Below are positions 2 through 15,979 of a stretch of 64,000 bases of DNA, piece by piece (position 1 is the first letter of the stretch; every line of letters starts with the position of its first letter). The translations under genes and the position numbers were made by a program. The notes under the pieces were generated by a model. It did not search any database. It was not told the origin of the DNA and worked only from the letters and a program-made list of their open reading frames with translations. The stretch comes from Spiribacter vilamensis (lineage in GTDB: Bacteria > Pseudomonadota > Gammaproteobacteria > Nitrococcales > Nitrococcaceae): NCBI RefSeq assembly GCF_004217415.1, contig NZ_SHLI01000001.1, positions 1,755,239 to 1,819,238 on the forward strand, given 5' to 3'.

Positions 2-1237
2 TACCGGCTCTACGATCTGATCTGGAAGCGCACCGTCGCCTGCCAGATGATTCACGCCACCATCGATACCGTCTCGGTGGATCTCGCCGCCGGTGACGTC
101 GCGAGCTTCCGGGCCACCGGCTCGACGATCCGCGATCCCGGCTTCATGGCCGTCTACCAGGAGGGCGCGGACGACCGGAGTGGCGATGCCAATGAACGCA
201 TTCTGCCGCCGCTCAGCGAGGGCGAGCGGATTCCGCTGACCGCGCTGCGGCCGGAACAGCATTTCACCGAGCCCCCGCCGCGGTACTCCGAGGCGAGCCT
301 GGTGCGCGCGCTCGAGGAGTACGGCATTGGCCGGCCGTCGACCTATGCCTCGATCCTCGCCACGCTTGAGGCGCGGAATTACGTGACCCAGGAGAACCGG
401 CGGTTCAAACCCACGGACACCGGGCGAGTGGTCACCAAATTCCTCACCGAGCACTTCGATCGCTACGTCGATTACGAGTTTACCGCCCGGATGGAGGACC
501 AGCTCGACGCCGTCTCCCGCGGCGAGACCGAGTGGGTGCCAGTGCTGCGCCAGTTCTGGGATCCCTTCCAGGAGCGTATCGAGGAAAAACAGCAGGTCTC
601 GCGCAGCGAGGTCATGAAGGCGCGCGAACTCGGCACCGATCCCCAGAGCGGCCGCCCGGTATCGGCCCGGCTGGGTCGCTACGGGCCCTTCGCCCAGCTC
701 GGTACGCGCGAGGATGAAGAGAAACCGAAATTCGCCAGTCTTCGGCCGGGACAGAGCATCGATACGATTACGCTGGACGAGGCACTGGCGCTGTTCACGC
801 TGCCCCGGGACCTGGGTACCACGCCGGACGGGCTGCCGCTCAGCGCCAACATCGGCCGCTTTGGTCCGTACGTGCGTTTCGGCGACCAGTTCGCATCCCT
901 CAAAAAGGACGACGACCCGTATACGATCGATCGCGATCGGGCCCTCGAACTGGTCGAGGAGAAAAAGGAGAACATCGCCAAACGCACCATTCAGAGCTTC
1001 GATGACGGGGCGTTGACGGTCATGAAGGGCCGGTTCGGGCCCTACGTCACCGACGGCCGCAAGCGTGTCAAAGTCCCCAAGGACCGCGAGGCGGAATCCC
1101 TTACGCAGGAAGAATGCCAGGCCCTGGTCGACGAGGCGCCGGAGCCCAAGGGCAAGGGCAAGGCCGCGAGCAAGAAGACCGGCACCGGAACCGGCAAGGC
1201 GAAGACCACCCGCAAGAAATCGTCCTCGAACCGCTGA
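2..1237 (+). CDS. topA: DNA topoisomerase I, C-terminal part (5' end outside window)
   Basis: This is the last 411 codons of type IA topoisomerase, which relaxes negatively supercoiled DNA. The frame is open from base 2, and the segment around the first ATG matches the family stretch just after the active-site tyrosine, which lies outside the window. Visible hallmarks are the EASLV motif followed by GIGRPSTYAS near residue 110, part of the DNA-binding core. The tail differs from the E. coli enzyme. There are no Cys4 zinc fingers; instead three glycine/phenylalanine repeats (cores GRYGPFAQLG, GRFGPYVRFG, GRFGPYVTDG) are followed by a Lys-rich end. Such repeats are the known Topo C-terminal repeat. 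tsaC follows after one base, so the two are probably co-transcribed. Identification is secure. Confidence 0.96.
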   Translation, partial: YRLYDLIWKRTVACQMIHATIDTVSVDLAAGDVASFRATGSTIRDPGFMAVYQEGADDRSGDANERILPPLSEGERIPLTALRPEQHFTEPPPRYSEASLVRALEEYGIGRPSTYASILATLEARNYVTQENRRFKPTDTGRVVTKFLTEHFDRYVDYEFTARMEDQLDAVSRGETEWVPVLRQFWDPFQERIEEKQQVSRSEVMKARELGTDPQSGRPVSARLGRYGPFAQLGTREDEEKPKFASLRPGQSIDTITLDEALALFTLPRDLGTTPDGLPLSANIGRFGPYVRFGDQFASLKKDDDPYTIDRDRALELVEEKKENIAKRTIQSFDDGALTVMKGRFGPYVTDGRKRVKVPKDREAESLTQEECQALVDEAPEPKGKGKAASKKTGTGTGKAKTTRKKSSSNR

Positions 1238-1238
1238 C

Positions 1239-1810
1239 ATGCGTGCGACCCGCCCGGCGCTGCGCCAGATCCGGGATTCCATCCTTGCCGGGGGTGTTGG
1301 CGCCTACCCCACCGAAGGTGTCTGGGGGCTCGGCTGCGACCCGCTCGATACCGCCGCCATTGAGCGCCTTATCCGACTCAAGGGCCGCGGTGCCGGCAAG
1401 GGCCTGATCGTGATCGCCGCGGATACCACGCAGCTGGACGGCCTGGTGCAATGGCCGAAACAGGCGCCAATCCGCGACACCATGCTTGCCACCTGGCCCG
1501 GCCCCGTCACCTGGGTCATGCAAGCCGCCGACGATCTGCCCGGACTGCTGACCGGCGGCCGATCCACCATCGCCGTGCGCGTTAGCCGACATCCACCGGT
1601 GATTGACCTGTGTCGCGGTATCGGTTCGGCGCTTGTCTCCACCAGCGCCAATCACAGCGGCAAGCCGGCGTGTCGGCGTCCCTGGCAGGTAAAGAAGGTG
1701 TTTGGCGACCGGCTCGACTGGTTCCTGCCGGGCCCGCTTGGCGGTCAGCGCGGTCCCTCCGAGATCCGCGAGGCGGAAACCGGACGCATCCTCCGCGCCG
1801 CGGCGCCGGC

Positions 1811-3461: not shown

Positions 3462-6143
3462 ATGGCAGCAAAAATGACGCCCATACCGACGCCGGGCGAC
3501 CAGGATCCGCAGGAGACGCAGGAGTGGCTCGAGGCGATCGAGTCGGTCCTCGAGTACGAGGGCCCGGAACGGGCGCAGTTCCTGCTCGAACAGCTCGTGG
3601 ACAAGGCCCGACGCAGCGGTGGTCAGCTGCCCTTCAAGGCAACCACCGCGTACCAGAACACCATCCCGACCCAGCACGAAAAGCCTTTCCCGGGCGATCA
3701 GGCACTGGAATCGCGAATCCGCTCGATCATTCGCTGGAACGCCATGGCCATGGTGGTTCAGGCCAACCGCGACCGCGAAGGAATCGGTGGCCATATCGCG
3801 TCATTCGCCTCTTCCGCCACGCTCTACGAGGTCGGCTTCAACCATTTCTGGCGGGCCCCGAGCGAGGATTTCGGCGGCGACCTGGTGTTCATGCAGGGCC
3901 ACTCCGCCCCGGGGATCTACGCCCGTGCCTATCTTGAAGGCCGTCTCGACGACGATGATCTGCACAACTTCCGTGCCGATCTGGCCAAATCGGGCAAGCC
4001 CCTCTCCTCCTATCCGCACCCCTGGCTGATGCCCGATTTCTGGCAGCTCCCCACGGTGTCCATGGGACTGGGTCCCATCATGGGTGTCTACCAGGCCCGC
4101 TTCCTCAAGTATCTCCACAATCGCGGCATCGTCGACACCTCGGATCGCAAGGTCTGGGTGTTCTGCGGCGACGGCGAGATGGACGAGCCGGAGAGCCTGG
4201 GGGCGATCGGCGTGGCCGCCCGCGAGGGCCTCGACAACCTGATCTTCGTGATCAACTGCAACCTCCAGCGCCTCGACGGGCCGGTGCGTGGCAACGGCAA
4301 GATCATCCAGGAGCTGGAGGGCGAATTCCGCGGCGCCGGCTGGAATGTCCTCAAGGTGCTCTGGGGGTCCGCCTGGGATCCGCTGCTCGCGAAGGACACC
4401 CAGGGCTTTCTGCGGCGGCGCATGGACGAGGCCGTGGATGGCGAGTACCAGAATTTCAAGGCCAAGGGCGGCGCCTACACCCGCGAGCATTTCTTCGGTG
4501 AATACCCCGAGCTCAAGGCCATGGTGGCGAATATGTCCGACGAGGACATCTGGCAGCTCAAGCGCGGCGGCCACGACTCCACCAAGGTCTACAACGCCTA
4601 CAAGGCGGCCACCGAGCACGAGGGCCAGCCCACGGTCATCCTCGCCAAGACGGTGAAGGGCTACGGCATGGGCGAGGCCGGCGAAGGCCAGAACATCACC
4701 CATCAGCAGAAGAAGATGGCGGAAAACGCCCTCAAGGACTTCCGCGACCGCTTCCATATCCCGGTACCGGATGAACAGGTCGCCGAGGCGCCGTTCTACA
4801 AGCCGGCCGAAGATTCGCCGGAGATGAAATACCTGCATGAGCGCCGCCAGGCGCTGGGTGGCTACCTGCCGGAGCGGCGCATTACCGCCGAGCCGGTGAA
4901 AATCCCCGACCTCTCCGCCTTCGACGTGCTGCTCAAAGACAGCGGCGAGCGCGAGATGTCCACGACCATGGCCTACGTCCGCGCGCTGTCGATCATCGCC
5001 CGCGACAAGAGCCTCGCCTCGCGCCTGGTGCCGATCGTGCCCGACGAGGCGCGGACCTTCGGTATGGAAGGCCTGTTCCGCCAGCTCGGCATCTACGCCT
5101 CGAAGGGCCAGCTCTACGAGCCGCAGGATGCCGATCAGCTGATGTATTACCGCGAGGATCAGAAAGGCCAGATCCTGCAGGAGGGCATCAACGAGGCGGG
5201 CGCCATGTCCAGCTGGATCGCCGCGGCCACGGCCTACGCCAATCACGGCATCGAGATGATCCCGTTCTTCGCCTACTACTCCATGTTCGGCTACCAGCGG
5301 GTCGGCGATCTCTGGTACGCCGCCGGCGACATGCAGGCCAAGGGCTTTCTCATGGGCGGCACCGCCGGTCGCACGACGCTGAACGGCGAGGGCCTGCAGC
5401 ACGAGGATGGCCACAGCCACCTGATGACCGCGGCGCTGCCCAACTGCCGCTCGTTCGATCCGACCTTTGCCTACGAGATGGCGGTCATCATCCAGGACGG
5501 CATGAAGCGGATGTACGAGGAGCAGGAATCGGTCTTCTACTACATCACGATGATGAACGAGAACTACCACCAGCCGGCGATGCCGGAGGGTGCCGAGGAC
5601 GGCATCACCCGGGGTATGTACCGGTTCCGGCAGGGTGAGGCCGGCGAGCGTCGCGTACAGCTGATGGGCTCCGGCAGCATCCTCATCGAAGTGATCGCGG
5701 CGGCGGATCTGCTCAGGCAGGACTGGGGGGTCGAGAGCGACGTCTGGAGCTGCACCTCGTTCACGGAGCTTCGCCGTGACGGCATCGACTGCGAGCGCTA
5801 CAACATGCTGCATCCCGAGGACACGCCCCGCGTCCCCTACGTGCAGCAGTGCCTGGCGGAGCACGAAGGACCGGCCATCGCCTCCACCGACTACATGCGG
5901 GCCTTTGCCGACCAGATCCGGCCCTACATCGACCGCCACTACGTGGTGCTGGGAACGGATGGCTATGGTCGGTCCGACACCCGCGAGAACCTGCGACGCT
6001 TCTTCGAGGTGGATCGCTACTACGTGACCGTGGCGGCCCTCAAGGCACTGGCGGACGAGGGCACGATCAAGCCCGACCAGGTCAGCAAGGCGATCGCCCG
6101 GTACAACATCGACACCGACGCCCCTAATCCGGTCACGGTCTAG
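3462..6143 (+). CDS. aceE: Pyruvate dehydrogenase E1 component (homodimeric)
   Basis: 893 residues, the size of the single-chain E1 of Gram-negative bacteria. It uses thiamine diphosphate to decarboxylate pyruvate and reductively acetylate the lipoyl groups of E2. The ThDP/Mg motif is clear: GDGEMDEPES (236-245) followed by NCNLQRLDGPVRGN (265-278). The N-terminal segment rich in Asp/Glu, just before VLEYEGPERAQ, is usual for E1 proteins and helps bind E2. It opens a long co-oriented run; aceF follows after 29 bp. The 205-bp upstream gap must hold the promoter. The best I can find is TGGTCA-17-TAGGCT around 3400-3430, which is weak, and no PdhR-like operator is obvious. Confidence 0.98.
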   Translation: MAAKMTPIPTPGDQDPQETQEWLEAIESVLEYEGPERAQFLLEQLVDKARRSGGQLPFKATTAYQNTIPTQHEKPFPGDQALESRIRSIIRWNAMAMVVQANRDREGIGGHIASFASSATLYEVGFNHFWRAPSEDFGGDLVFMQGHSAPGIYARAYLEGRLDDDDLHNFRADLAKSGKPLSSYPHPWLMPDFWQLPTVSMGLGPIMGVYQARFLKYLHNRGIVDTSDRKVWVFCGDGEMDEPESLGAIGVAAREGLDNLIFVINCNLQRLDGPVRGNGKIIQELEGEFRGAGWNVLKVLWGSAWDPLLAKDTQGFLRRRMDEAVDGEYQNFKAKGGAYTREHFFGEYPELKAMVANMSDEDIWQLKRGGHDSTKVYNAYKAATEHEGQPTVILAKTVKGYGMGEAGEGQNITHQQKKMAENALKDFRDRFHIPVPDEQVAEAPFYKPAEDSPEMKYLHERRQALGGYLPERRITAEPVKIPDLSAFDVLLKDSGEREMSTTMAYVRALSIIARDKSLASRLVPIVPDEARTFGMEGLFRQLGIYASKGQLYEPQDADQLMYYREDQKGQILQEGINEAGAMSSWIAAATAYANHGIEMIPFFAYYSMFGYQRVGDLWYAAGDMQAKGFLMGGTAGRTTLNGEGLQHEDGHSHLMTAALPNCRSFDPTFAYEMAVIIQDGMKRMYEEQESVFYYITMMNENYHQPAMPEGAEDGITRGMYRFRQGEAGERRVQLMGSGSILIEVIAAADLLRQDWGVESDVWSCTSFTELRRDGIDCERYNMLHPEDTPRVPYVQQCLAEHEGPAIASTDYMRAFADQIRPYIDRHYVVLGTDGYGRSDTRENLRRFFEVDRYYVTVAALKALADEGTIKPDQVSKAIARYNIDTDAPNPVTV

Positions 6144-6172: not shown

Positions 6173-7531
6173 GTGGCAGAGGTCAAGGAAATCACCGTCC
6201 CCGACATCGGCGACTTCGATGCGGTGGACGTCATTGAGGTACTGGTAGGGCCCGGCGACAGCGTCGCCGCGGAAGACTCGATCATCACCCTGGAGAGCGA
6301 CAAGGCAACCATGGAGGTGCCCTGCCCGGTGGCTGGCACCGTCACCGAGATGCTCATCAAGGCAGGTGACAAGGTCGCGGAGGGCACGCCGGTCGCCAAG
6401 GTCGAGGTGGCCGACGAGGCCGCTGGCGGCGGCGCCGGCGAGCCGGCGGCACCAGCCGCCGAGGCACCCGCCGAGGCCCCCGCCGAGGCGCCGTCGGCCG
6501 GGCTGGCCGCGGCGGCCGAGCCCGCGCCTGCAGCGGCGGAGAAGCCGACGCCGGCGCCGGAACCGGCACCGGCCGCATCGGCGCCCCTTTCCGCCGAGAC
6601 CCAGCGACTGGCGCATGCCGGCCCGTCGGTGCGGCGGTTCGCCCGCGAGCTCGGTGTCCCGCTCGACCAGGTCACGGGGAGCGGTCGCAAGGGTCGGATC
6701 AGCCGTGAAGACGTCCAGGCCTATGTCAAGTCGGTGCTCGAGGGGGGTGCGACCGCCGCGCCGGCACCGGCCACCGCACCCGCGGCCGAGGGCACGGGTA
6801 TCCCGCCGATTCCCGCGGTGGATTTCAGTAAATTCGGCGAGGTCGAGGAGATCGACCTGCCGCGTATCAAGCGCCTGTCCGGTCCGCATCTGCACCGCAG
6901 CTGGCTCAACATCCCGCATGTCACCCAGTTCGACGAGGCCGACCTCACCGAGCTCGACGCCTTCCGCAAGGCCGAGAAGGCCGAGGCGGAGAAGGCGGGA
7001 GTCAAGCTCACGCCGCTCGCCTTCATGGTCAAGGCATCGGCGCGGGCACTGCGCGAGTTCCCCGATTTCAACAGCTCGCTGCGCCCCGACGGGGCCGCCC
7101 TCATCCGCAAGCACTACATCAATATCGGTGTCGCGGTGGATACCCCCCAGGGCCTCGTGGTACCGGTTATCAAGGATGCCGACCGCAAGGGCATCTACGA
7201 CATCGCCGGTGATCTCGCCGAGCTCTCCGGCAAGGCCCGGGACGGGAAACTCGGCGCCGGCGACATGCAGGGTGGCACGTTCAGCATCTCCAGCCTCGGC
7301 GGCATCGGGGGCACGGCGTTCACGCCCATCGTCAACGCCCCGGAGGTCGCCATCCTCGGTGTCTCCAAGACCGCCACCAAACCGGTCTGGGATGGCAGCC
7401 AGTTCATGCCGCGGCTCATGCTGCCGCTGAGCCTCTCCTACGATCACCGGGTGATCGACGGGGCCTCCGCCGCGCGCTTTACCAATTACCTCGCGGGTGT
7501 GCTCGGCGATCTGCGCCGGCTCATCCTCTAG
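6173..7531 (+). CDS. aceF: Pyruvate dehydrogenase E2, dihydrolipoamide acetyltransferase
   Basis: 452 residues, GTG start. E2 is the core of the complex: it takes acetyl groups on its lipoyl arm and passes them to CoA. Domains in order: one lipoyl domain (residues 1-78, lipoylated Lys44 in ESDKATMEVP), an Ala/Pro/Glu-rich flexible linker (about 80-140), a peripheral-subunit binding domain (about 145-182, SVRRFARELGV), a second Ala/Pro linker, and the catalytic domain ending in SYDHRVIDG with His425 and Asp429. E. coli E2 carries three lipoyl domains; here there is one, but E3 carries a second (see lpdA). It lies between aceE and lpdA with gaps of 29 and 20 bp. Confidence 0.97.
   Translation: MAEVKEITVPDIGDFDAVDVIEVLVGPGDSVAAEDSIITLESDKATMEVPCPVAGTVTEMLIKAGDKVAEGTPVAKVEVADEAAGGGAGEPAAPAAEAPAEAPAEAPSAGLAAAAEPAPAAAEKPTPAPEPAPAASAPLSAETQRLAHAGPSVRRFARELGVPLDQVTGSGRKGRISREDVQAYVKSVLEGGATAAPAPATAPAAEGTGIPPIPAVDFSKFGEVEEIDLPRIKRLSGPHLHRSWLNIPHVTQFDEADLTELDAFRKAEKAEAEKAGVKLTPLAFMVKASARALREFPDFNSSLRPDGAALIRKHYINIGVAVDTPQGLVVPVIKDADRKGIYDIAGDLAELSGKARDGKLGAGDMQGGTFSISSLGGIGGTAFTPIVNAPEVAILGVSKTATKPVWDGSQFMPRLMLPLSLSYDHRVIDGASAARFTNYLAGVLGDLRRLIL
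6420..6590 (+). repeat. Ala/Pro/Glu-rich linker repeat in aceF
   Basis: Degenerate short tandem units encode runs such as EAPAEAPAEAP between the lipoyl and subunit-binding domains. This is the flexible swinging-arm linker typical of E2 and is also a stretch prone to replication slippage. Confidence 0.7.
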
Positions 7532-7551
7532 AACCGAGAGGATCGCGATTC

Positions 7552-9339
7552 ATGTCAGAAGCCAAGGAAGTTCGCGTCCCGGATATCGGCGACTTCGATG
7601 CGGTGGAAATCATCGAGGTGCTTATTGCCCCCGGTGACACCGTCGAGGCCGAGGGCTCACTGATCACCCTCGAGAGCGACAAGGCCACCATGGAGGTGCC
7701 GGCCCCGTTCGACGGGCGGATCGATTCCGTGCTGGTCAGTGTCGGTGACAAGGTGGCCGAGGGCGACCTGATCGCCATGGCCATCCCGGCCGAAGCGGCC
7801 GCCGACAGTGGCGGCGAAGAGCCCGCCACCGGCGAGGCACCCGCCGAGCCGGCGTCGACAACCGGCACCGCCGAACCGGCACCGGCAGCCGCTGCATCCG
7901 CCAGCGCCAACCAGGCCGCGCCCGATTCACCCGACTGCGATCTCCTCGTCGTGGGCGCGGGACCCGGCGGCTACAGCGCCGCCTTCCGGGCCGCGGACCT
8001 GGGGCTGAAGACGATCCTGGTCGAGCGTTATCCCAGTCTCGGCGGTGTCTGCCTGAACGTGGGCTGCATCCCGTCGAAGGCGCTGCTGCATGCGGCCAAG
8101 GTGATCGACGACGCCGCCTTCTTCGCTGACAACGGTATCGAGTTCGGCGAGCCGAAAATCGATCTGAAAAAGCTCGAATCGTGGAAATCCAGCGTGGTCG
8201 GCAAGCTGACCGGCGGCCTGGTGGGTCTGGCCAAACAGCGCAATGTCGAAACGGTGCACGGCCCTGCACAGTTCGTCGACGATTACCACGTCAAGGTCGA
8301 CACCGCCGATGGCGAGCGCTCGATCAGCTATCGCAATGTCATTATCGCCGCGGGCTCGCGGCCGATCGCCCCGCCCGGTTTCGATCTCGATCATCCGCGC
8401 ATCATGGACTCCACCGACGCGCTCAAGCTCGAGGAGGTACCGAAACGCATGCTCGTGGTGGGCGGCGGCATCATCGGTCTGGAAATGGCCTCGGTCTATC
8501 ACGCGCTTGGCAGCGAGATCACCGTCGTCGAGCTGGCGGACCGGATAATGACGGGGGCCGACGCGGACATCGTCAAGCCGTTCAAGAAGATCATCGACAA
8601 GCGCTACGCCAACATCTACCTCAATACGAAGGTCACCGCGCTGAAACCGGACGATGACGGCGTGAGCGTCGAGCTCGAGGGCGACAAGGCCCCCTCCGAG
8701 GATCGCTTCGACCGGGTGCTGGTCTCCGTGGGCCGGCGGCCGAACACCGATCGGCTCAATCTCGAGGCCACCAGCCTCGAGCTGATGGGTAACGGCTGCA
8801 TCCCCGCCGATGACCAGATGCGTACCCGCGTCGATCATATCTTCGCCATCGGTGATCTGATCGGCCAGCCGATGCTGGCACACAAGGCGGTTCACGAAGG
8901 CAAGGTGGCCGCCGAGGTCGCGGCCGGCGAGAAGAGCGCCTTCGATGCCCGGGTTATCCCGTCGGTGGCCTACACCGACCCGGAGGTTGCCTGGGTCGGT
9001 GTTACCCAGGAGCAGGCCAAAGCCGAGGGCATGGATGTCGAGATCGGCAGCTTCCCCTGGGCCGCCAATGGCCGCTCGCTGTCGCTCGGCCGCGACGAGG
9101 GCATCACCAAGCTGATCTTCGAGCGTGGCACGGAGCGCGTCGTCGGTGCCGGCATTGTCGGCCCCAACGCCGGTGACCTGATCGCGGAGGTCGGACTCGC
9201 GATCGAGATGGGTGCCGACATGCACGATATCGGCCTCACGATCCACCCGCATCCCACCATCTCCGAGACGGTGGGCATGGCGGCCGAGGCGGCGGCCGGT
9301 ACGCTGACGGACCTCTACATACCCAAGAAGAAACGCTGA
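7552..9339 (+). CDS. lpdA: Dihydrolipoamide dehydrogenase (E3) with N-terminal lipoyl domain
   Basis: 595 residues, about 120 longer than E. coli Lpd. E3 re-oxidises dihydrolipoamide with FAD and NAD+. The extra N-terminus is a full lipoyl domain almost identical in its first 50 residues to that of AceF (Lys44 in ESDKATMEVP), followed by an Ala/Pro linker to about residue 125. Then come the FAD motif VGAGPGG (134-140), the redox disulfide Cys167/Cys172 (GGVCLNVGC), the NAD fold (VGGGIIGLEMA) and the active-site His567/Glu572 in HPHPTISE. This lipoyl-E3 architecture is known in Neisseria and other proteobacteria. The position right after aceE-aceF assigns it to the pyruvate complex. Confidence 0.97.
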   Translation: MSEAKEVRVPDIGDFDAVEIIEVLIAPGDTVEAEGSLITLESDKATMEVPAPFDGRIDSVLVSVGDKVAEGDLIAMAIPAEAAADSGGEEPATGEAPAEPASTTGTAEPAPAAAASASANQAAPDSPDCDLLVVGAGPGGYSAAFRAADLGLKTILVERYPSLGGVCLNVGCIPSKALLHAAKVIDDAAFFADNGIEFGEPKIDLKKLESWKSSVVGKLTGGLVGLAKQRNVETVHGPAQFVDDYHVKVDTADGERSISYRNVIIAAGSRPIAPPGFDLDHPRIMDSTDALKLEEVPKRMLVVGGGIIGLEMASVYHALGSEITVVELADRIMTGADADIVKPFKKIIDKRYANIYLNTKVTALKPDDDGVSVELEGDKAPSEDRFDRVLVSVGRRPNTDRLNLEATSLELMGNGCIPADDQMRTRVDHIFAIGDLIGQPMLAHKAVHEGKVAAEVAAGEKSAFDARVIPSVAYTDPEVAWVGVTQEQAKAEGMDVEIGSFPWAANGRSLSLGRDEGITKLIFERGTERVVGAGIVGPNAGDLIAEVGLAIEMGADMHDIGLTIHPHPTISETVGMAAEAAAGTLTDLYIPKKKR

Positions 9340-9345
9340 CCGTCG

Positions 9346-10359
9346 ATGGCTCGGTCCGCCGCCGTCGTTGCCACCGGGCGCTATCTACCCGAGCGCCTTG
9401 TGAGCAACGACGAGCTGCGGAGCCAACTTGCCACCAGCGGTCATGCCGACATCATCGCCCGGCTCGAGGCCGGCTCCGGCATTCGTCAGCGCTACCGGGC
9501 GGCACCGGACCAGGCGACCTCGGACCTGGCGGTAGCGGCCGCTCGAAAGGCACTGGATCGCGCCGGTTGTCGGGCCGGCGATCTCGATCTCATTATCCTC
9601 GGCACCGACACCCCCGATCGGATCACCCCGGCGACCAGCGTGATCGTCCAGGCCAAACTCGGCGCCACGGGGGCGGGAACACTGGATATCGGCTGTGCCT
9701 GTGCATCGTTTCCAACCGCACTCGCCACCGCCACCGGGCTGATCGCCACCAATCGGTCGCTGCGACGCGTCATGGTGATCGGCGCCTACATGATGCAGCG
9801 CCTCGCCGACCCGGATGATCCGATGATCTTTTTCTACGGCGATGGCGCCGGCGCCGCCCTGATGATGCCGACCGACGGCCCCGGCCTGGTCACCAGCGCC
9901 TTCCTGGCCGACGGCCGATACGCCGATGACTGGGGCATCGCCGCTGGCGGGACCGCGGAGCCGGCCAGTCACGACGCCGTGGCCGCCGGCCGCACCCGGG
10001 TGCGCGTAAAGCGGCGCTATCCCCCCTCGATCAACGAGCAGGGCTGGCCGCGGATCATGCGACGCCTGGCCACCCAGGGAGATTTCCCGCTGGCGACCGT
10101 GAACCAGGCGGTATTCACCCAGATCAATGCCGCCAGCATCGATAATGCCTGTGCCACGCTGGACCTGGCCCCGGAACGCGCCCCGAAGCTCATGGATCGC
10201 TACGGTTACACGGGCTCGGCCTGCATCCCCATTGCCCTCGATCACATCATCGAGCATCGGCTCGCCGGCGCCGGGGATCTGGTCACGCTGGTGGGTTCCG
10301 GCGTAGGTTACAACATGGCGGGGGTCGCCCTGCGACTGGAGGAGAGAACGACCCGATGA
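9346..10359 (+). CDS. KAS III / FabH-like thiolase-fold protein lacking the catalytic His and Asn
   Basis: 337 residues with the thiolase fold of beta-ketoacyl-ACP synthase III. The nucleophile is in place: Cys119 in DIGCACASF. FYGDGAGAA near residue 163 and the C-terminal glycine loop are also family features. FabH normally completes the triad with His (in PHQAN) and Asn (in HGNTSAAS). The aligned stretches here read FTQIN and YGYTGSAC, so His becomes Thr258 and Asn becomes Tyr288. The protein can probably form an acyl-enzyme but not decarboxylate malonyl-ACP in the usual way. Function is unknown; an acyltransferase or hydrolase role is possible. It starts 7 bases after lpdA and overlaps the next gene by ATGA, so it belongs to the pyruvate dehydrogenase run. 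Confidence 0.8.
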   Translation: MARSAAVVATGRYLPERLVSNDELRSQLATSGHADIIARLEAGSGIRQRYRAAPDQATSDLAVAAARKALDRAGCRAGDLDLIILGTDTPDRITPATSVIVQAKLGATGAGTLDIGCACASFPTALATATGLIATNRSLRRVMVIGAYMMQRLADPDDPMIFFYGDGAGAALMMPTDGPGLVTSAFLADGRYADDWGIAAGGTAEPASHDAVAAGRTRVRVKRRYPPSINEQGWPRIMRRLATQGDFPLATVNQAVFTQINAASIDNACATLDLAPERAPKLMDRYGYTGSACIPIALDHIIEHRLAGAGDLVTLVGSGVGYNMAGVALRLEERTTR

Positions 10360-13300
10360 ACGATAATGCCGAAACCGCCCGCGAGCGGCAGATCGAGGCC
10401 CTCGAGCAGCTGGCCGACCAGCGCTGGCCGGATAGCGAGCGCGCGGTCATCCGCCGATTCCTCGACTGCTATTACGCGAGTACCGCCACCGAGGACCTGA
10501 CCTCGCGCCAGCCGGCCACGCTCTACGGGGCCGCCGTTTCCCACTGGCGCCTCGGTGACCGGCGGCCTGACGGCGAAATCGCATTGCGCGTCTACAACCC
10601 CGATCCGGAACAGGACGGCTGGGAGTCGACCCACAGCATCGTGCAGATCGTCGCCGACGATCAGCCATTCCTCATCGACTCACTCTCCATGGCGATGAAC
10701 GAGCAGGGGCTGATGATCCATCTCATCACCCATCCCGTGCTCGAGGTCACGCGTGACACCGACCGTCGCGCCACGGGGGTCAGTGACCAGTCCGCGAGCG
10801 ATGGCGATACCGAGGCCTGGATCCACATCGAGGTCGACCGCCAGGCCACCCCGGAGCAGCTCCAGTCACTGGAGGATGTCGTGCGCGATACGCTGCGCGA
10901 TGTCGAAGTGGCGGTGACCGACTGGCAGTCCATGCACCGCCAGGCCCAGCAGGCCCGGCGCTCCCTCAAACGCCAGGCGCCCGACACCGATGATGACTAC
11001 CTGGCCGAGGTGGACGCGTTTCTCGAGTGGATGCTCGATGAGCATTTCACCTTCCTCGGCTATCGCCGCTATGACCTGCGTCGCGTCGACGGGACCATGC
11101 GACTACAGGCGGTCAGGGACACGGGCTTGGGACTGCTGCGGGCGGAGCGCAACGCGCATCGACTGTCGCAGAGCTTCGAGGCGCTGCCCCCGGCGCTGCG
11201 TGAACAGGCCAGTGACCCCGATCCGCTGATCCTCACCAAGTCCAGCCACCGGTCGACCGTCCATCGGCACGGCTATATGGACACCATCGGCGTGAAGCGC
11301 TTTAACGCCCGGGGCGAGGTCATCGGCGAACACCGCTTCCTCGGCCTCTACACCTCGGGGGCCTACAGCCGCAATCCGCGCAAGATCCCGCTACTGCGGC
11401 GCAAGGTGGCGGCGGTACTCGAGCGCGCCGGCCTGCGCAGCAACAGCCACGCCGGCAAGGCGCTGGTGCATATTCTCGAGACCTATCCCCGCGACGAGCT
11501 CTTCGAGATCGACTCGCAGACGCTCTACGAGACCGCCCTCGGCATCCTCCAGCTCCAGGAGCGCCAGCGGGTGCGGTTGTTCCTGCGCCATGACCGCTTC
11601 GGGCGATTCGTCTCCTGCCTCGTCTACGCGCCACGGGACCGCTACGACACGACAACCCGGCAGCGCATGGAGAAAATCCTCATCGAGGCATTCAACGGCG
11701 CCCACTCCGAATTCACGGTGCAGCTCTCGGAAGCGGTGCTGGCGCGCATCCACTTCATCGTCCATTTCCGCGATACCGAGTCCCGGGCGGTCGACACCGA
11801 GGCCCTCGAGGCCCGGCTCGCGGCGACCACCCGATCGTGGTCCGACGACCTGGCACAGACCCTGCTCGAGCACTGCGGCGAGGCCCGCGGCACCGAGCTC
11901 CATCACCGCTACCGCGATGCCTTCAGCGCCGCCTACCGGGAGGATACCGGCCCTGGCAGCGCAACCCAGGACATCGAGCGGCTGGAAACCCTGGCCACGA
12001 ACAACGGCCTGGTGATCAGTCTCTATCGCCCGCTCGAGGCGCCCGTGGGCAGTCTGCGCCTGAAGCTCTATCACGCCGGACACCCGATCAGCCTCTCCGA
12101 TGTCCTGCCGGTGCTCGAGAACATGGGGGTGCGGGTCATCGACGAGCGCCCCTATGGCATCCGCCCCGATGAGGGCGAGCAATGCTGGATCCACGACTTC
12201 GGCCTGAGCCACGACCCCGATCTGACCCTCGATACCGGACGCCTGCGTGATGCGTTCCAGTCCGGGTTTGCCGCGATATGGCGGCACCGGACCGACGACG
12301 ACGGATTCAACCGGCTTATCCTGCTCGCCGGCCTGGCATGGCGTGACATCGTCGTGTTGCGGGCCTATGCCCAGTATCTACGCCAGGCCGGGACCGCCTA
12401 CAGCCAGCCCTACATGGAGTACACGCTGGCGGATCATCCCGCGATCGCGAGCGGACTCATCGACCTGTTCCGGGCGCGTTTCGATCCCGACAGCGCGGAC
12501 ACCGAACGCGCCGACCGGATCGCCGAGGATCTCACCCGGCAGCTCGATGCCGTCGAGAGCCTCGACGACGATCGCATCCTGCGCCGTCTGCTGGACGCGA
12601 TGCGCGCCACGCTGCGCACCAATTTCTTCCAGCGCGATGACGAGGACCAGGTCCCGGAGACCGTGGCCATCAAGCTCCGGCCGGACCGCATCCCGGGTGT
12701 CCCCAAGCCGGTGCCGGCATTCGAGATCTTTGTCAGCTCGCCCCGGGTGGAGGGCGTCCACCTGCGCGGTGGGAAGGTCGCCCGTGGCGGACTGCGCTGG
12801 TCGGAGCGTCGCGAAGACTATCGCACCGAGATCCTCGGCCTGATGAAGGCGCAGATGGTCAAGAACGCCCTGATCGTGCCGGTCGGGGCCAAGGGCGGGT
12901 TTGTCTGCAAGCGCCTGCCCCGCGAGCGAGGCGCTCAGCAGGCGGAGGTGCTGGCCTGTTATCGGCTGTTCATCCGCGGACTGCTCGACGTCACCGACAA
13001 TATCGTCGACGACGCCATCCAGCCGCCGGATCGCGTGATCCGCCATGACGACGACGACCCCTACCTGGTGGTGGCTGCCGACAAGGGCACCGCGAGTTTC
13101 TCCGACGATGCCAATGCCATCGCCGAGGAATACGGGTTCTGGCTGCATGACGGGTTCGCCTCGGGCGGCTCCACCGGTTACGACCACAAGGTCATGGGGA
13201 TCACCGCACGGGGCGCCTGGGTCGCCGTCCAGCGGCATTTCCGCGAGCGCGGTCGGGATATCCAGACCCAGCCCTTCACCGCGGTCGGCGTCGGCGACAT

Positions 13301-15188
13301 GTCCGGTGACGTGTTCGGCAACGGTATGCTCCAGTCCCCTACCACGCGGCTGATCGCCGCCTTCGATCATCGCCATGTCTTCATCGATCCGGATCCCGAC
13401 CCGGAACGCAGCTATATCGAGCGCGAGCGGCTGTTCGGGCAGGGCCCGTCGAGCTGGGCGGACTACGACAAATCGGTGATCTCCACGGGGGGCGGTGTCT
13501 GGCCCCGCAGCGCCAAGTCCATCACCCTCCCGGCGGCGGCCCGCGAGGCGCTGGGTCTCGACCGCGAACGCCTGACGCCCACCGAGCTCATCGCCGCGAT
13601 CCTCCGGGCCCCGGTGGACCTGCTCTGGAACGGCGGGATCGGTACCTACATCAAGGCGCGTTCCGAGAGCCATGCCGAGGTTGGAGACAAGGCCAACGAC
13701 AGCCTGCGCGTGGATGCCGAGGACCTTCGCTGCCAGGTCGTCGGTGAGGGCGGCAACCTGGGCGTCACCCCGCTCGGACGGGTGGCCTTCGCTCTCGCCG
13801 GTGGCCAGATCAACAACGACGCCATCGACAATTCCGGCGGCGTCGATTGCTCCGACCACGAGGTGAATATCAAGATCCTCATGAACGCCGTGGTCGATGA
13901 TGGCGACCTGACGGTCAAGCAGCGCAATCGTCTGCTCGGCGAAATGACCGATGCGGTTGCCGAGCATGTCCTCGCCAACAACTACCGCCAGACCCAGGGC
14001 ATCAGCCTGATGCTCGACCGGGCGGCGGAGCGCCTTTCCGAGCAGGGGCGCTGCATGCGTCGACTCGAGCGCGAGGGTCGCCTCGACCGGGTGGTGGAAC
14101 AGCTCCCCGACGACGAGACCCTCGCCGAGCGCGAGAAGCAGGGCCTGGGACTGACCCGTCCCGAGCTCGCGATCCTGCTCTCGTACACCAAGATCCGCGC
14201 TTTCGAGCAGCTCCTCGAATCACCGCTGGTGGAGGGCGAAGAGAATCTCCACGAGCTGGTCGGCTACTTCCCCGCGCCTCTGCGGGAACGCTTTGCCAAC
14301 CGCATCGATCAGCATCCCCTGCGGCGCGAGATCATTGCCAACCACCTGGCCAATCACGTCCTCAACCGCATGGGAGCCACCTTCCTGTTGCGCATGACCG
14401 AGGCCACCGGCGCCGATATCACCGAGGCGGTCCGGGCCTATCTGGCCGCGCGGGATATCTATGGCCTGCGCGGGCTCTGGTACGAGGTCGACCGGCTCGA
14501 CAACCGCGTGGCGACTCATCATCAGCAATCACTCCTGCACACCATCCGAGCGCTCCAGGAGCAGGCGACCCGCTGGCTGCTGCGCCATCAGTCGGGTCAC
14601 AACGGCGACGCGGTGACCACCCGCGCCATGCAGCAAGCCATCGGAACGCTCGATGAGGCCCTGCCCGCACTGCTCACCGACGCGGCCGCCGAACGCCTTG
14701 CCGCCGAGCGCGAGGAGCACGTCGAAGCCGGGGTACCGGAGGCGCTGGCCGAGCGCATGAGCCGGGTGCCGAAGCTGTATCCCGGGCTTGATATCAGCGC
14801 CGCGGCAACGCTCACCGGTGCCGGCCTGACCGATGCCGCCGGCGTCCATTTCCAGGCCGCTGATCACCTCGCACTCAACGAACTGCGGGCAGCGATCGAC
14901 CGATTCCGTGCCCTCGACGACTGGCAGGCGCGTTACCGCATCGGGCTGATGGAATCCCTCCACGAGGAGCATCGCCGGATTACCGAGGCCATCCTCCGCC
15001 ACACCGCGGCCGAGCCCGCGGACAAACGGGTCGAGACCTGCCTGGCGGCACAGGGCAATCGGGTCGACTACCTGCGCCAGATCACCGATCAGATCAGCGC
15101 CAGCGCCAAGCCCGATGCGGCAATGTTCGGGGTGGCGCTGCAGGCGCTCCGCCAGGTGGCCGCCGACGCCCAGGGGTCGAGGCAATGA
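10356..15188 (+). CDS. gdhB: NAD-specific glutamate dehydrogenase, large (180-kDa) type
   Basis: 1610 residues, the size of the GDH-180 family described in Streptomyces and Pseudomonas. It oxidises glutamate to 2-oxoglutarate and ammonium with NAD+, usually in a catabolic direction. N-terminal ACT-like regions occupy roughly the first 700 residues. The catalytic core around residues 800-1150 shows RGGLRWSERREDYRTE and PVGAKGGFVCK, which contains the catalytic lysine, then GDMSGDVFGNGML and GEGGNLG in the dinucleotide-binding part. A strong GGAGGAGAG precedes the ATG, which overlaps the previous stop (ATGA). Large GDHs are often allosterically controlled by amino acids. No small hexameric GDH gene is in the window. 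Confidence 0.95.
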   Translation: MNDNAETARERQIEALEQLADQRWPDSERAVIRRFLDCYYASTATEDLTSRQPATLYGAAVSHWRLGDRRPDGEIALRVYNPDPEQDGWESTHSIVQIVADDQPFLIDSLSMAMNEQGLMIHLITHPVLEVTRDTDRRATGVSDQSASDGDTEAWIHIEVDRQATPEQLQSLEDVVRDTLRDVEVAVTDWQSMHRQAQQARRSLKRQAPDTDDDYLAEVDAFLEWMLDEHFTFLGYRRYDLRRVDGTMRLQAVRDTGLGLLRAERNAHRLSQSFEALPPALREQASDPDPLILTKSSHRSTVHRHGYMDTIGVKRFNARGEVIGEHRFLGLYTSGAYSRNPRKIPLLRRKVAAVLERAGLRSNSHAGKALVHILETYPRDELFEIDSQTLYETALGILQLQERQRVRLFLRHDRFGRFVSCLVYAPRDRYDTTTRQRMEKILIEAFNGAHSEFTVQLSEAVLARIHFIVHFRDTESRAVDTEALEARLAATTRSWSDDLAQTLLEHCGEARGTELHHRYRDAFSAAYREDTGPGSATQDIERLETLATNNGLVISLYRPLEAPVGSLRLKLYHAGHPISLSDVLPVLENMGVRVIDERPYGIRPDEGEQCWIHDFGLSHDPDLTLDTGRLRDAFQSGFAAIWRHRTDDDGFNRLILLAGLAWRDIVVLRAYAQYLRQAGTAYSQPYMEYTLADHPAIASGLIDLFRARFDPDSADTERADRIAEDLTRQLDAVESLDDDRILRRLLDAMRATLRTNFFQRDDEDQVPETVAIKLRPDRIPGVPKPVPAFEIFVSSPRVEGVHLRGGKVARGGLRWSERREDYRTEILGLMKAQMVKNALIVPVGAKGGFVCKRLPRERGAQQAEVLACYRLFIRGLLDVTDNIVDDAIQPPDRVIRHDDDDPYLVVAADKGTASFSDDANAIAEEYGFWLHDGFASGGSTGYDHKVMGITARGAWVAVQRHFRERGRDIQTQPFTAVGVGDMSGDVFGNGMLQSPTTRLIAAFDHRHVFIDPDPDPERSYIERERLFGQGPSSWADYDKSVISTGGGVWPRSAKSITLPAAAREALGLDRERLTPTELIAAILRAPVDLLWNGGIGTYIKARSESHAEVGDKANDSLRVDAEDLRCQVVGEGGNLGVTPLGRVAFALAGGQINNDAIDNSGGVDCSDHEVNIKILMNAVVDDGDLTVKQRNRLLGEMTDAVAEHVLANNYRQTQGISLMLDRAAERLSEQGRCMRRLEREGRLDRVVEQLPDDETLAEREKQGLGLTRPELAILLSYTKIRAFEQLLESPLVEGEENLHELVGYFPAPLRERFANRIDQHPLRREIIANHLANHVLNRMGATFLLRMTEATGADITEAVRAYLAARDIYGLRGLWYEVDRLDNRVATHHQQSLLHTIRALQEQATRWLLRHQSGHNGDAVTTRAMQQAIGTLDEALPALLTDAAAERLAAEREEHVEAGVPEALAERMSRVPKLYPGLDISAAATLTGAGLTDAAGVHFQAADHLALNELRAAIDRFRALDDWQARYRIGLMESLHEEHRRITEAILRHTAAEPADKRVETCLAAQGNRVDYLRQITDQISASAKPDAAMFGVALQALRQVAADAQGSRQ

Positions 15189-15979
15189 CCGACTCCGTGG
15201 AACTCGCCAGCGCCGACAGTGGCGAAGGGCCCGCCCTTGTCATGCTGCATGGACTCTACGGGTCGGGGAACAACTGGCGCGGCATTGCCCGGCCGTTCGA
15301 GGCCAGCCATCGCGTGCTGCGCCCCGACCTGCGCAATCACGGCCAGTCGCCGCACTGCGCCGATATGGACTACCGGCGGATGGCCGCGGATATCGTCGCC
15401 CTGCTCGATCGCAAAGGCATCGACCGGGCGGATATCATGGGTCACAGCATGGGCGGCAAGGTCGCCATGACGCTGGCACTGACGGCGCCATCGCGGCTAC
15501 GTCGACTGATGGTGGTGGATATCGCGCCGATGGCCTACAACCACGAAGTCGAGCACGGCGGCATTATTCGGGCGATGCAGGCCATCGACCTCGCGGCGGC
15601 GCCGGGTCGCGATGCGGTCGATCGCGAACTGGCAACCACGATCAGTCACCCGATGATCCGGCAGTTCCTGCTGACCAACCTGCAGCGGCGGGACAACCAG
15701 TGGGCCTGGCGTATCCCGCTGGATATCCTCGCCGACCAGCTGCCAGTGATCCAGGGCTGGCCCGAGGGCCTCGGCAGCCTCGCGGACCGGCCGGTCCGCT
15801 GCCTCCACGGGGGCGCGTCGGACTATGTCGCCGCCGCGGGCCGCGCGGCGATCGCCCGGCATTTCCCGGCCGCCGGGATCATCCGCTACGACGGCGTCGG
15901 GCACTGGCTGCATGCGGAGGCCCCGCAGCGATTCACCGACGATCTGAAAGATTTTGTGGCCGAAGACGACCACCCCTGA
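15185..15979 (+). CDS. Alpha/beta-hydrolase, YbfF-like esterase
   Basis: 264 residues with the alpha/beta-hydrolase fold. The oxyanion region LHGLYGSGNNW, nucleophile Ser88 in GHSMGG, acid Asp213 (GGASDYV) and His240 (GVGHWLHAE) form an apparent full triad. The whole resembles the acyl-CoA/short-chain esterase YbfF group, whose physiological substrate is not settled. There is no signal peptide, so it should be cytoplasmic. It overlaps gdhB by ATGA and precedes maeB by 18 bp, so it is co-transcribed with central carbon enzymes; a thioesterase-like housekeeping role is inference only. Confidence 0.85.
   Translation: MTDSVELASADSGEGPALVMLHGLYGSGNNWRGIARPFEASHRVLRPDLRNHGQSPHCADMDYRRMAADIVALLDRKGIDRADIMGHSMGGKVAMTLALTAPSRLRRLMVVDIAPMAYNHEVEHGGIIRAMQAIDLAAAPGRDAVDRELATTISHPMIRQFLLTNLQRRDNQWAWRIPLDILADQLPVIQGWPEGLGSLADRPVRCLHGGASDYVAAAGRAAIARHFPAAGIIRYDGVGHWLHAEAPQRFTDDLKDFVAEDDHP

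Follow-up and report, generated by a model that had tools for sequence, protein, structure and literature searches.

β-Ketoacyl-acyl carrier protein (ACP) synthase III (KAS III, or FabH) is the starter enzyme of fatty-acid synthesis. Its fold is very well studied, and relatives that share it are readily annotated as fatty-acid starters. In FabH, a Cys residue takes up the acyl group while a His and an Asn mediate decarboxylation, and both of the latter are reportedly required in the Escherichia coli enzyme (PMC4807248). KAS III folds with a changed triad have also been described, i.e., CerJ, which acylates a sugar hydroxyl, and ChlB3, which acylates a carrier protein; the catalytic residues of ChlB3 are Cys113, His296 and Asp301, and CerJ has a like pair (PMC9573744). 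Here we analyze a gene in a 64,000-nucleotide stretch of the genome of the salt-loving bacterium Spiribacter vilamensis (contig NZ_SHLI01000001.1, positions 1,755,239 to 1,819,238; hereafter the window). The open reading frame (ORF) at 9346-10359 on the forward strand has an ATG start and translates into a KAS III-like protein of 337 amino acids, in which the Cys is kept and Thr and Tyr stand at the places of His and Asn (the C-T-Y gene). Its sequence marks the protein as a paralogue of KAS III that belongs to a distinct and old clade, whose altered active site is conserved across distant bacteria. It probably catalyzes a reaction different from that of FabH, on short acyl groups.

The Cys-Thr-Tyr clade and its active site

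A Pfam scan of the protein listed PF08545 and PF08541 and nothing else. Seventeen NCBIfam families were listed for it, every one under its cut-off, among them PRK09352 (192.5 bits, cut-off 249) and TIGR00747 (fabH; 161.3 bits, cut-off 292.1). An AlphaFold2 model built from a 57-row alignment reached a pLDDT of 95.2, and Foldseek matched it over its whole length to FabH and BioZ chains, with TM scores of 0.86-0.90 for the best few. The FabH structures 4dfe, 4ryb and 1hn9 gave Z scores of 44.9-46.2 against the model, with root-mean-square deviations of 1.6-2.0 Å and 25-33% identity; for 4dfe, VIA-align gave a Z of 46.2 and 2.0 Å over 322 residues. A profile search of PDB sequences found no structure from the clade, the top chain being an ordinary FabH (238 bits). 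The genome itself (2.08 Mb in two contigs) holds one other match, at 35% identity and with FabH-type Cys, His and Asn motifs. Since an ordinary FabH is thus encoded elsewhere in the genome, the window gene is a paralogue.

The sequence-only reading had proposed that the nucleophile Cys119 is kept, that the FabH His and Asn have become Thr258 and Tyr288, and that these are real substitutions rather than misalignment. HMMER alignments to solved FabH chains agreed, placing Thr258-Gln259 at His-Gln (or in the same column) and Gly287-Tyr288-Thr289 at Gly-Asn-Thr, and conservation in homologues confirmed the replacements. This conservation was followed in a main alignment comprising 81 rows from the clade, 23 from FabH, 4 from its sisters and 4 of the PRK06840 type, in which all 23 FabH rows carry Cys-His-Asn. 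The same reading took the Gln and Asn of HQAN, and the Gly and Thr of GNT, to be intact; the Gln is indeed fixed (81/81), but the Asn is present in only 21 of the 81 clade rows (the window included), with Arg in 59 and Ser in one. A His and Asn elsewhere in the pocket would, by that reading, have refuted it; no invariant His was found across the rows of the 57-row alignment.

Beyond the triad, eleven more positions are fixed in the clade (81/81 each) and differ from FabH, whose residues are given in parentheses: Asp88 (Thr/Ser), Cys117 (Ala), Tyr148 (Glu), Trp196 (Leu), Pro226 (Val), Asn230 (Ala), Trp234 (Leu/Met), Gly290 (Ser), Cys293 (Ser), Ser318 (Phe/Val) and Asn323 (Thr). Conservation of Asp88 and of the stretch YGDGAGAA was partly selected in, because the two patterns used to scan genomes, which avoid the triad, include Asp88 in one case and part of that stretch in the other. 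A profile search, not the scan patterns, supplied the four sister rows; all four have Asp88, Tyr148, Pro226, Asn230, Trp234, Phe257, Thr258, Tyr288, Gly290, Cys293 and Ser318 in common with the clade. That so many additional positions are fixed in a form unlike FabH speaks for a new function rather than decay, and the active site looks refitted, not decayed. Consistent with this, a decayed FabH copy was ruled out by the fixed residues and the intact separate FabH in the genome, and a frameshift or annotation error was ruled out by the open frame and the conserved protein.

The CoA site of FabH has changed as well. Of the residues that form this site in E. coli FabH, i.e., Trp32, Arg36 and Arg151 (PMC8036411), the first is replaced by Lys or Arg in 75 of the 81 clade rows, the second is kept in 5, and the place of the third is a gap in all 81; at the place of Arg249, 9 clade rows have Arg. 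The sisters retain Trp32 in three of four rows and Arg249 in three of four, and the KAS III of Acinetobacter baumannii also lacks the residues at the places of Arg36 and Arg249 (PMC8036411). Thus, the losses of Trp32, Arg36 and Arg249 are neither unique to the triad change nor general to it.

To delimit the clade, one genome per species was scanned, and the best 80 of at least 249 confirmed relatives were used (52-80% identity), so that all counts on this set lean toward closer relatives. Cys-Thr-Tyr was found in 79 of the 80 loci and Cys-Ser-Tyr in one (L091). By the labels of the records, many of which are metagenome bins, 34 loci belong to Acidobacteriota, 31 to Pseudomonadota, 10 to Myxococcota, 2 to Bacillota and 1 each to Chloroflexota and Actinomycetota, six phyla altogether, with one unlabelled. 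Among 59 relative genomes, 38 were judged to carry the gene (the S. vilamensis genome included, two partial), and loci were obtained for 30; all 30 of these same-order orthologues have Cys119, Thr258, Tyr288 and Cys293, and a normal triad, which the sequence-only reading had named as a finding that would speak against it, was seen in none of them. More distant Cys-Thr-Tyr sequences are L116, L117 and L118 (37-38% identity) and L148 (31%). The 22 KAS III loci at 29-34% identity that were taken from the same search as L116-L118 (L119-L140) are all Cys-His-Asn.

A tree of 47 rows (the window with 30 of the 80 scan loci, 8 of the 24 Cys-His-Asn rows, the 4 sisters and the 4 rows of PRK06840 type) united the 31 clade rows in one branch with an SH-aLRT support of 100, joined clade and sisters at 94 and set the Cys-His-Asn rows apart at 95; it was a quick build without bootstrap, in which L148 is a long branch. 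The Thr/Tyr pair is therefore conserved as a clade. In one acidobacterium (L078) the gene occurs as tandem copies at 6796-7785 and 8001-8990, both Cys-Thr-Tyr. The distant relative at L148:3453-4463 is followed immediately 3' by an alpha/beta hydrolase (Pfam) and further downstream by a second likely one (tblastn), and its genome also carries a standard clade member (L114).

In the window the C-T-Y gene lies in a run of pyruvate dehydrogenase (PDH) genes (Table 1). The coordinates agree with the earlier description of a gene fixed between lpdA and gdhB: the lpdA stop codon (9337-9339) is followed by a 6-bp gap (9340-9345), and the stop of the C-T-Y gene overlaps the gdhB start (10356) as ATGA.

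Table 1. Features of the C-T-Y locus and codons of its active-site positions (window coordinates).
Feature	Coordinates	Strand	Basis or conservation
aceE, pyruvate dehydrogenase E1	3462..6143	+	ORF; name read from translation; homologues adjoin the gene in relatives
aceF, E2	6173..7531	+	ORF; name read from translation; homologues adjoin the gene in relatives
lpdA, E3, upstream neighbour	7552..9339	+	ORF; name taken from the sequence-only reading
KAS III-fold protein, Cys-Thr-Tyr type, 337 aa	9346..10359	+	ORF, Pfam and fold match
Asp88 codon	9607..9609	+	Asp in 81/81 clade and 4/4 sister rows, 0/23 FabH rows (Thr/Ser)
Cys119 codon (nucleophile position), TGT	9700..9702	+	Cys in 81/81 clade and 23/23 FabH rows
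Thr258 codon (FabH His position), ACC	10117..10119	+	Thr in 80/81, Ser in 1/81 clade rows; FabH His 23/23
Tyr288 codon (FabH Asn position), TAC	10207..10209	+	Tyr in 81/81 clade rows; FabH Asn 23/23
Cys293 codon, five residues after Tyr288	10222..10224	+	Cys in 81/81 clade and 4/4 sister rows; FabH Ser 23/23
gdhB, NAD-type glutamate dehydrogenase, downstream	10356..15188	+	ORF; name taken from the sequence-only reading
alpha/beta hydrolase 3' of gdhB	15185..15979	+	Pfam Abhydrolase_1, 94.6 bits; trails gdhB in relatives too

Gene neighbourhoods across lineages

It had been guessed from the locus that PDH makes the acyl donors of the enzyme. Within 1.5 kb, we found both lpd upstream and gdhB downstream in 14 of the 30 same-order loci, gdhB alone in 8, lpd alone in 4 and neither in 4 (some contigs being short), i.e., an lpd homologue in 18 and a gdhB homologue in 22. 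For the best 80 loci, neighbours were identified by similarity to chosen seeds, with short contigs scored as lacking the neighbour. On this count, 18 of the 31 pseudomonadotal loci have PDH genes no more than 5 kb away, as against 0 of the 49 with other labels, and 21 of the 31 have gdhB within that distance. Thus, the position beside PDH genes is a lineage trait, and the proposal on donors does not extend to the family as a whole.

In GC-rich loci, genes were called with a simple score of codon positions. The typical acidobacterial locus begins with an outer-membrane receptor and continues with a short-chain dehydrogenase/reductase (SDR), the C-T-Y gene, an alpha/beta hydrolase, an AMP-dependent acyl-CoA ligase and a second hydrolase. 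SDR, hydrolase and ligase are all present within 5 kb in 28 of the 34 loci, and receptor homologues, some of them weak, in 25. The operon of L059 contains a PhaZ7-type depolymerase (400 bits, cut-off 450), and L091 contains a piece of one. In the two Bacillota loci (L099 and L104), a CoA transferase and a thiolase flank the C-T-Y gene and an SDR is found upstream; L099 also has a hydrolase closest to the model for depolymerases of native polyhydroxyalkanoate (PHA; 116.7 bits, cut-off 300). The neighbours on a Chloroflexota plasmid (CP069395.1) include a beta-ketoacyl-ACP reductase (SDR), an acetyl-CoA hydrolase/transferase, a zinc-ribbon protein with an oligonucleotide/oligosaccharide-binding (OB) fold, a hydrolase, a branched-chain-type ABC transporter and a protein that is annotated as hypothetical but is thiolase-like by Pfam. 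The neighbours in Paucimonas lemoignei include a hydrolase and a 3-hydroxybutyrate dehydrogenase (374.2 bits, cut-off 258); L058, L060 and L071 have homologues of these in the same location. At L067, a myxococcal locus, the adjacent genes encode an alpha/beta hydrolase and a sodium:solute symporter.

Other neighbours were noted in passing. A second KAS III-like gene adjoins the C-T-Y gene at L106:6917-7954, L088:4370-5401, L059 (about 11411-12412) and L073 (about 765-1769, minus strand). The L106 locus, from Geothrix, also encodes an MNIO-type maturase of ribosomally synthesized and post-translationally modified peptides (PF05114, 289.7 bits) at 11258-12130, 2.3 kb downstream of the gene. In betaproteobacteria and Ectothiorhodospiraceae, an all-helical family of about 210 amino acids, which we call protein X, occurs near the C-T-Y gene, often beside a hydrolase (L082:6133-6789 and, on the minus strand, L048:4153-4830, L068:9043-9657 and L043:10033-10668). 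Protein X had no Pfam match at an E value of 0.001, no NCBIfam match at 0.5 (three members) and none among PDB sequences; its AlphaFold2 model (pLDDT 91.8) found no PDB fold match at 0.001 or better, with weak resemblance to TenA/heme-oxygenase-like folds. A strict link between the two genes was ruled out, since only 15 of the 59 relatives (14 of them carriers of the C-T-Y gene) encode protein X, and all 14 genomes from the window's genus lack it.

Candidate reactions

Because the Cys is kept and the His and Asn, both required for decarboxylation by FabH (PMC4807248), are replaced, a non-decarboxylating Cys acyl-enzyme would be the simplest and most natural reading. From the predicted fold, the clade, its fixed residues and the gene contexts, we infer catalytic activity, a role for each residue and a four-carbon (C4) substrate. 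Taken as a whole, we tentatively propose that the clade has exchanged the half of its active site that decarboxylates malonyl groups, and that Cys119 may carry out acyl transfer without decarboxylation in C4 metabolism. A short acyl group would form a thioester with Cys119, the hydroxyls of Thr258 and Tyr288 would stand in for His and Asn, and Asp88 and Cys293 could serve as acid/base groups. The enzyme would then transfer the acyl group with no decarboxylation; the partners would most likely be CoA and an ester or thioester of a hydroxy- or ketoacid, in the metabolism of 3-hydroxybutyrate and acetoacetate derived from polyhydroxybutyrate (PHB). As one example, 3-hydroxybutyryl units could be freed from small oligoesters in a CoA-dependent manner. 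Thiolysis of PHB by CoA has a precedent in PhaZ1 (PMC3430594). The ester-to-CoA step is the least certain part of this explanation, and we regard it as doubtful. Similarly speculative, and in our estimate rather doubtful, is the broader suggestion that an undescribed, ancient thiolase/KAS III branch with Cys-Thr-Tyr, a fixed Asp and a second Cys might catalyze a reaction new to this fold, by performing either CoA-dependent release or transfer of 3-hydroxybutyryl-type groups or retro-aldol cleavage of short 3-hydroxyacyl-CoAs, for the assimilation of 3-hydroxyacid oligomers in Acidobacteriota, Chloroflexota, Bacillota and Proteobacteria.

The S. vilamensis genome encodes the PHA synthase PhaC, a 3-hydroxybutyrate dehydrogenase (314.3 bits, cut-off 307.05) and a canonical thiolase (best match 490.9 bits). 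PhaC scored over its cut-off in 50 of the 59 relative genomes. Among 20 clade genomes, 9 were over the PhaC_N cut-off, four of these by weak partial matches of 34-42 bits, and a PhaZ7 model matched with at least 400 bits in 3, compared with 1 of 398 pseudomonadotal genomes at an E value of 1e-60. Several observations weigh against the proposed PHB setting. No PF06850 depolymerase was found in the S. vilamensis genome. In one family (f5), whose 12 genomes lack the clade by their scores, PhaC exceeds its cut-off in 11, and it is missing from the carriers G025 and G007 (the latter genome being 74% complete) and from the nine acidobacterial carriers among the 20 clade genomes. The PhaZ7 counts are suggestive only, because two of the three genomes are related betaproteobacteria. 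The acidobacterial SDR that was scanned (L047) is FabG-like and not of the 3-hydroxybutyrate dehydrogenase type. In the 10 myxococcal loci, no seed neighbours were found except one second KAS-like gene, and Pfam assigned 10 neighbours from 8 of these loci to unrelated families, the exception being a hydrolase of the beta-lactamase fold next to L105. The SDR, hydrolase and ligase families are all very large, and the operon counts are raw, with no matched background. Moreover, with Trp32 and Arg151 lost in the clade, CoA binding, if any, must differ from that of FabH.

A strict link to PHA synthase was thus ruled out, since PhaC is lacking in some carriers and present in non-carriers; the C-T-Y gene does not follow PHA synthesis. 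The association with PHB genes occurs in several lineages, is not seen in Myxococcota and is not tied to PhaC. At most, the gene contexts suggest a role in the use of 3-hydroxyacids.

The fixed residues would also suit a thiolase-like or 3-hydroxy-3-methylglutaryl (HMG)-CoA-synthase-like enzyme that joins short acyl-CoAs through a carbon-carbon bond, or splits such a bond, and does not decarboxylate. The base would be Cys293 or Asp88, which may align with the Glu of HMG-CoA synthase, and the Thr258 and Tyr288 hydroxyls would form an oxyanion hole. We consider this alternative unlikely. The second Cys, Cys293, is fixed, the gene contexts include acetoacetyl-CoA chemistry, and a thiolase homologue is near the gene in only 1 of the 34 acidobacterial loci (one thiolase seed), all of which favor it. 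The acid fixed at position 88 (81/81) precedes the nucleophile by 31 residues; the positions of PhlA that correspond to the Glu and Cys of such enzymes, 83 and 115, lie 32 apart (PMC6392133). However, TIGR01930 matched in all 59 relative genomes (58 over cut-off, the S. vilamensis genome included), and a thiolase already lies near the gene in L099, L104, L098 and the plasmid, so that a thiolase step is already covered; the same TIGR01930 matches rule out a role as sole acetyl-CoA acetyltransferase. The 337-residue protein also has no Pfam thiolase domain (PF00108, PF02803), and it scores 55.1 bits with the HMG-CoA synthase model PRK04262 against a cut-off of 244. Cleavage of a 3-hydroxyacyl-CoA by a thiolase-fold retro-aldolase, with Tyr288 and a cysteine acting as in the steroid aldolases, seems very unlikely to us. 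Tyr288 and Cys293 are both fixed, and thiolase-like and OB-fold/zinc-ribbon proteins are found together in the plasmid operon; the OB-fold partner was seen in that one annotated operon and not searched for elsewhere. Tyr288 sits at the FabH Asn position, which is presumably a different place from that of the YDCY motif. Among the described aldolases, CtSal uses a Tyr and a Cys and TcLtp2 two Tyr residues, with a DUF35 partner, but CtSal has Gly at the place of the nucleophilic Cys, which is fixed here (PMC12329534).

It is also quite unlikely that the protein is a non-catalytic, structural subunit that supports a partner enzyme, in the manner of PqsB, which lacks all three FabH residues and works in a complex (PMC4807248), or PhlA, which lacks the catalytic Cys and Glu and is likewise in a complex (PMC6392133). 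A candidate partner would be the product of the second KAS III-like gene that adjoins the clade gene in L106, L088, L059 and L073, but these are only 4 of 80 loci (some contigs being short), and Cys119, Tyr288 and Cys293 are fixed in all 81 rows, whereas PqsB and PhlA have lost the nucleophile. Finally, the enzyme could still be a decarboxylating condensing enzyme in which Thr and Tyr do the work of His and Asn, given that fold and nucleophile are as in FabH and that PqsC functions without the Asn (PMC4807248). We judge this highly improbable, as the clade has lost both of the residues that E. coli FabH reportedly requires for decarboxylation (PMC4807248) and for the most part lacks Trp32, Arg36, Arg151 and Arg249, and an ordinary FabH is present in the same genome.

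A six-phylum branch with a fixed, different active site would mean that many proteins are loosely named, e.g., the plasmid homologue, which is annotated as 'ketoacyl-ACP synthase III', and that they perhaps perform new chemistry. If non-decarboxylating acyl transfer in C4 metabolism proves correct, it might bring an unrecognised enzyme into the breakdown of the bioplastic PHB and of 3-hydroxybutyrate.

Comparison with described systems

Judged by titles and the starts of abstracts, and with subscription papers mostly outside the coverage, none of the papers found describes a Cys-Thr-Tyr KAS III. Four superfamilies that we take to make up the OleABCD pathway meet in the acidobacterial operons. 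Membership in that pathway was considered and gained no support from the models that matched: the best match was the acyl-CoA ligase PRK06187 for the two ligases scanned (461.4 and 471.2 bits, cut-off 476) and FabG for one SDR, these being general models, with no Ole-specific test made.

The clade resembles FabH in its fold over the full model length, in the Cys nucleophile and in the Gln that follows the catalytic position. It differs in having Thr and Tyr for His and Asn, in that Trp32, Arg36, Arg151 and Arg249 are for the most part lost, and in missing the NCBIfam cut-offs, that of TIGR00747 included. BioZ, a 3-oxopimeloyl-ACP synthase (6kue, 9w96), shares the KAS III fold with a TM score of 0.90, but PRK05963, which we take to be the BioZ model, gives the window protein 142.5 bits against a cut-off of 437.

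Among systems with altered catalytic residues, PqsC keeps Cys and His without the Asn and PqsB has none of the three (PMC4807248), whereas the clade has the Cys and two fixed replacements. CtSal and Ltp2 likewise employ Tyr as a catalytic group in a thiolase fold, but they belong to another subfamily, act with a DUF35 partner and, in the case of CtSal, have Gly for the nucleophilic Cys (PMC12329534). CerJ and ChlB3 are like the clade in combining the KAS III fold with a changed triad; they have a His and, five residues on, an Asp (PMC9573744), where the clade, matched by spacing alone, has Tyr288 and Cys293 and no invariant His. The PRK06840-type proteins, which stand beside the clade gene in L106, L088, L059 and L073 (the model match shown for the L106 neighbour being 415.5 bits), keep the Cys in 4/4 rows and form a tree branch of their own, with His at position 288 and Asp at 293 (4/4), a spacing that resembles that of CerJ and ChlB3.

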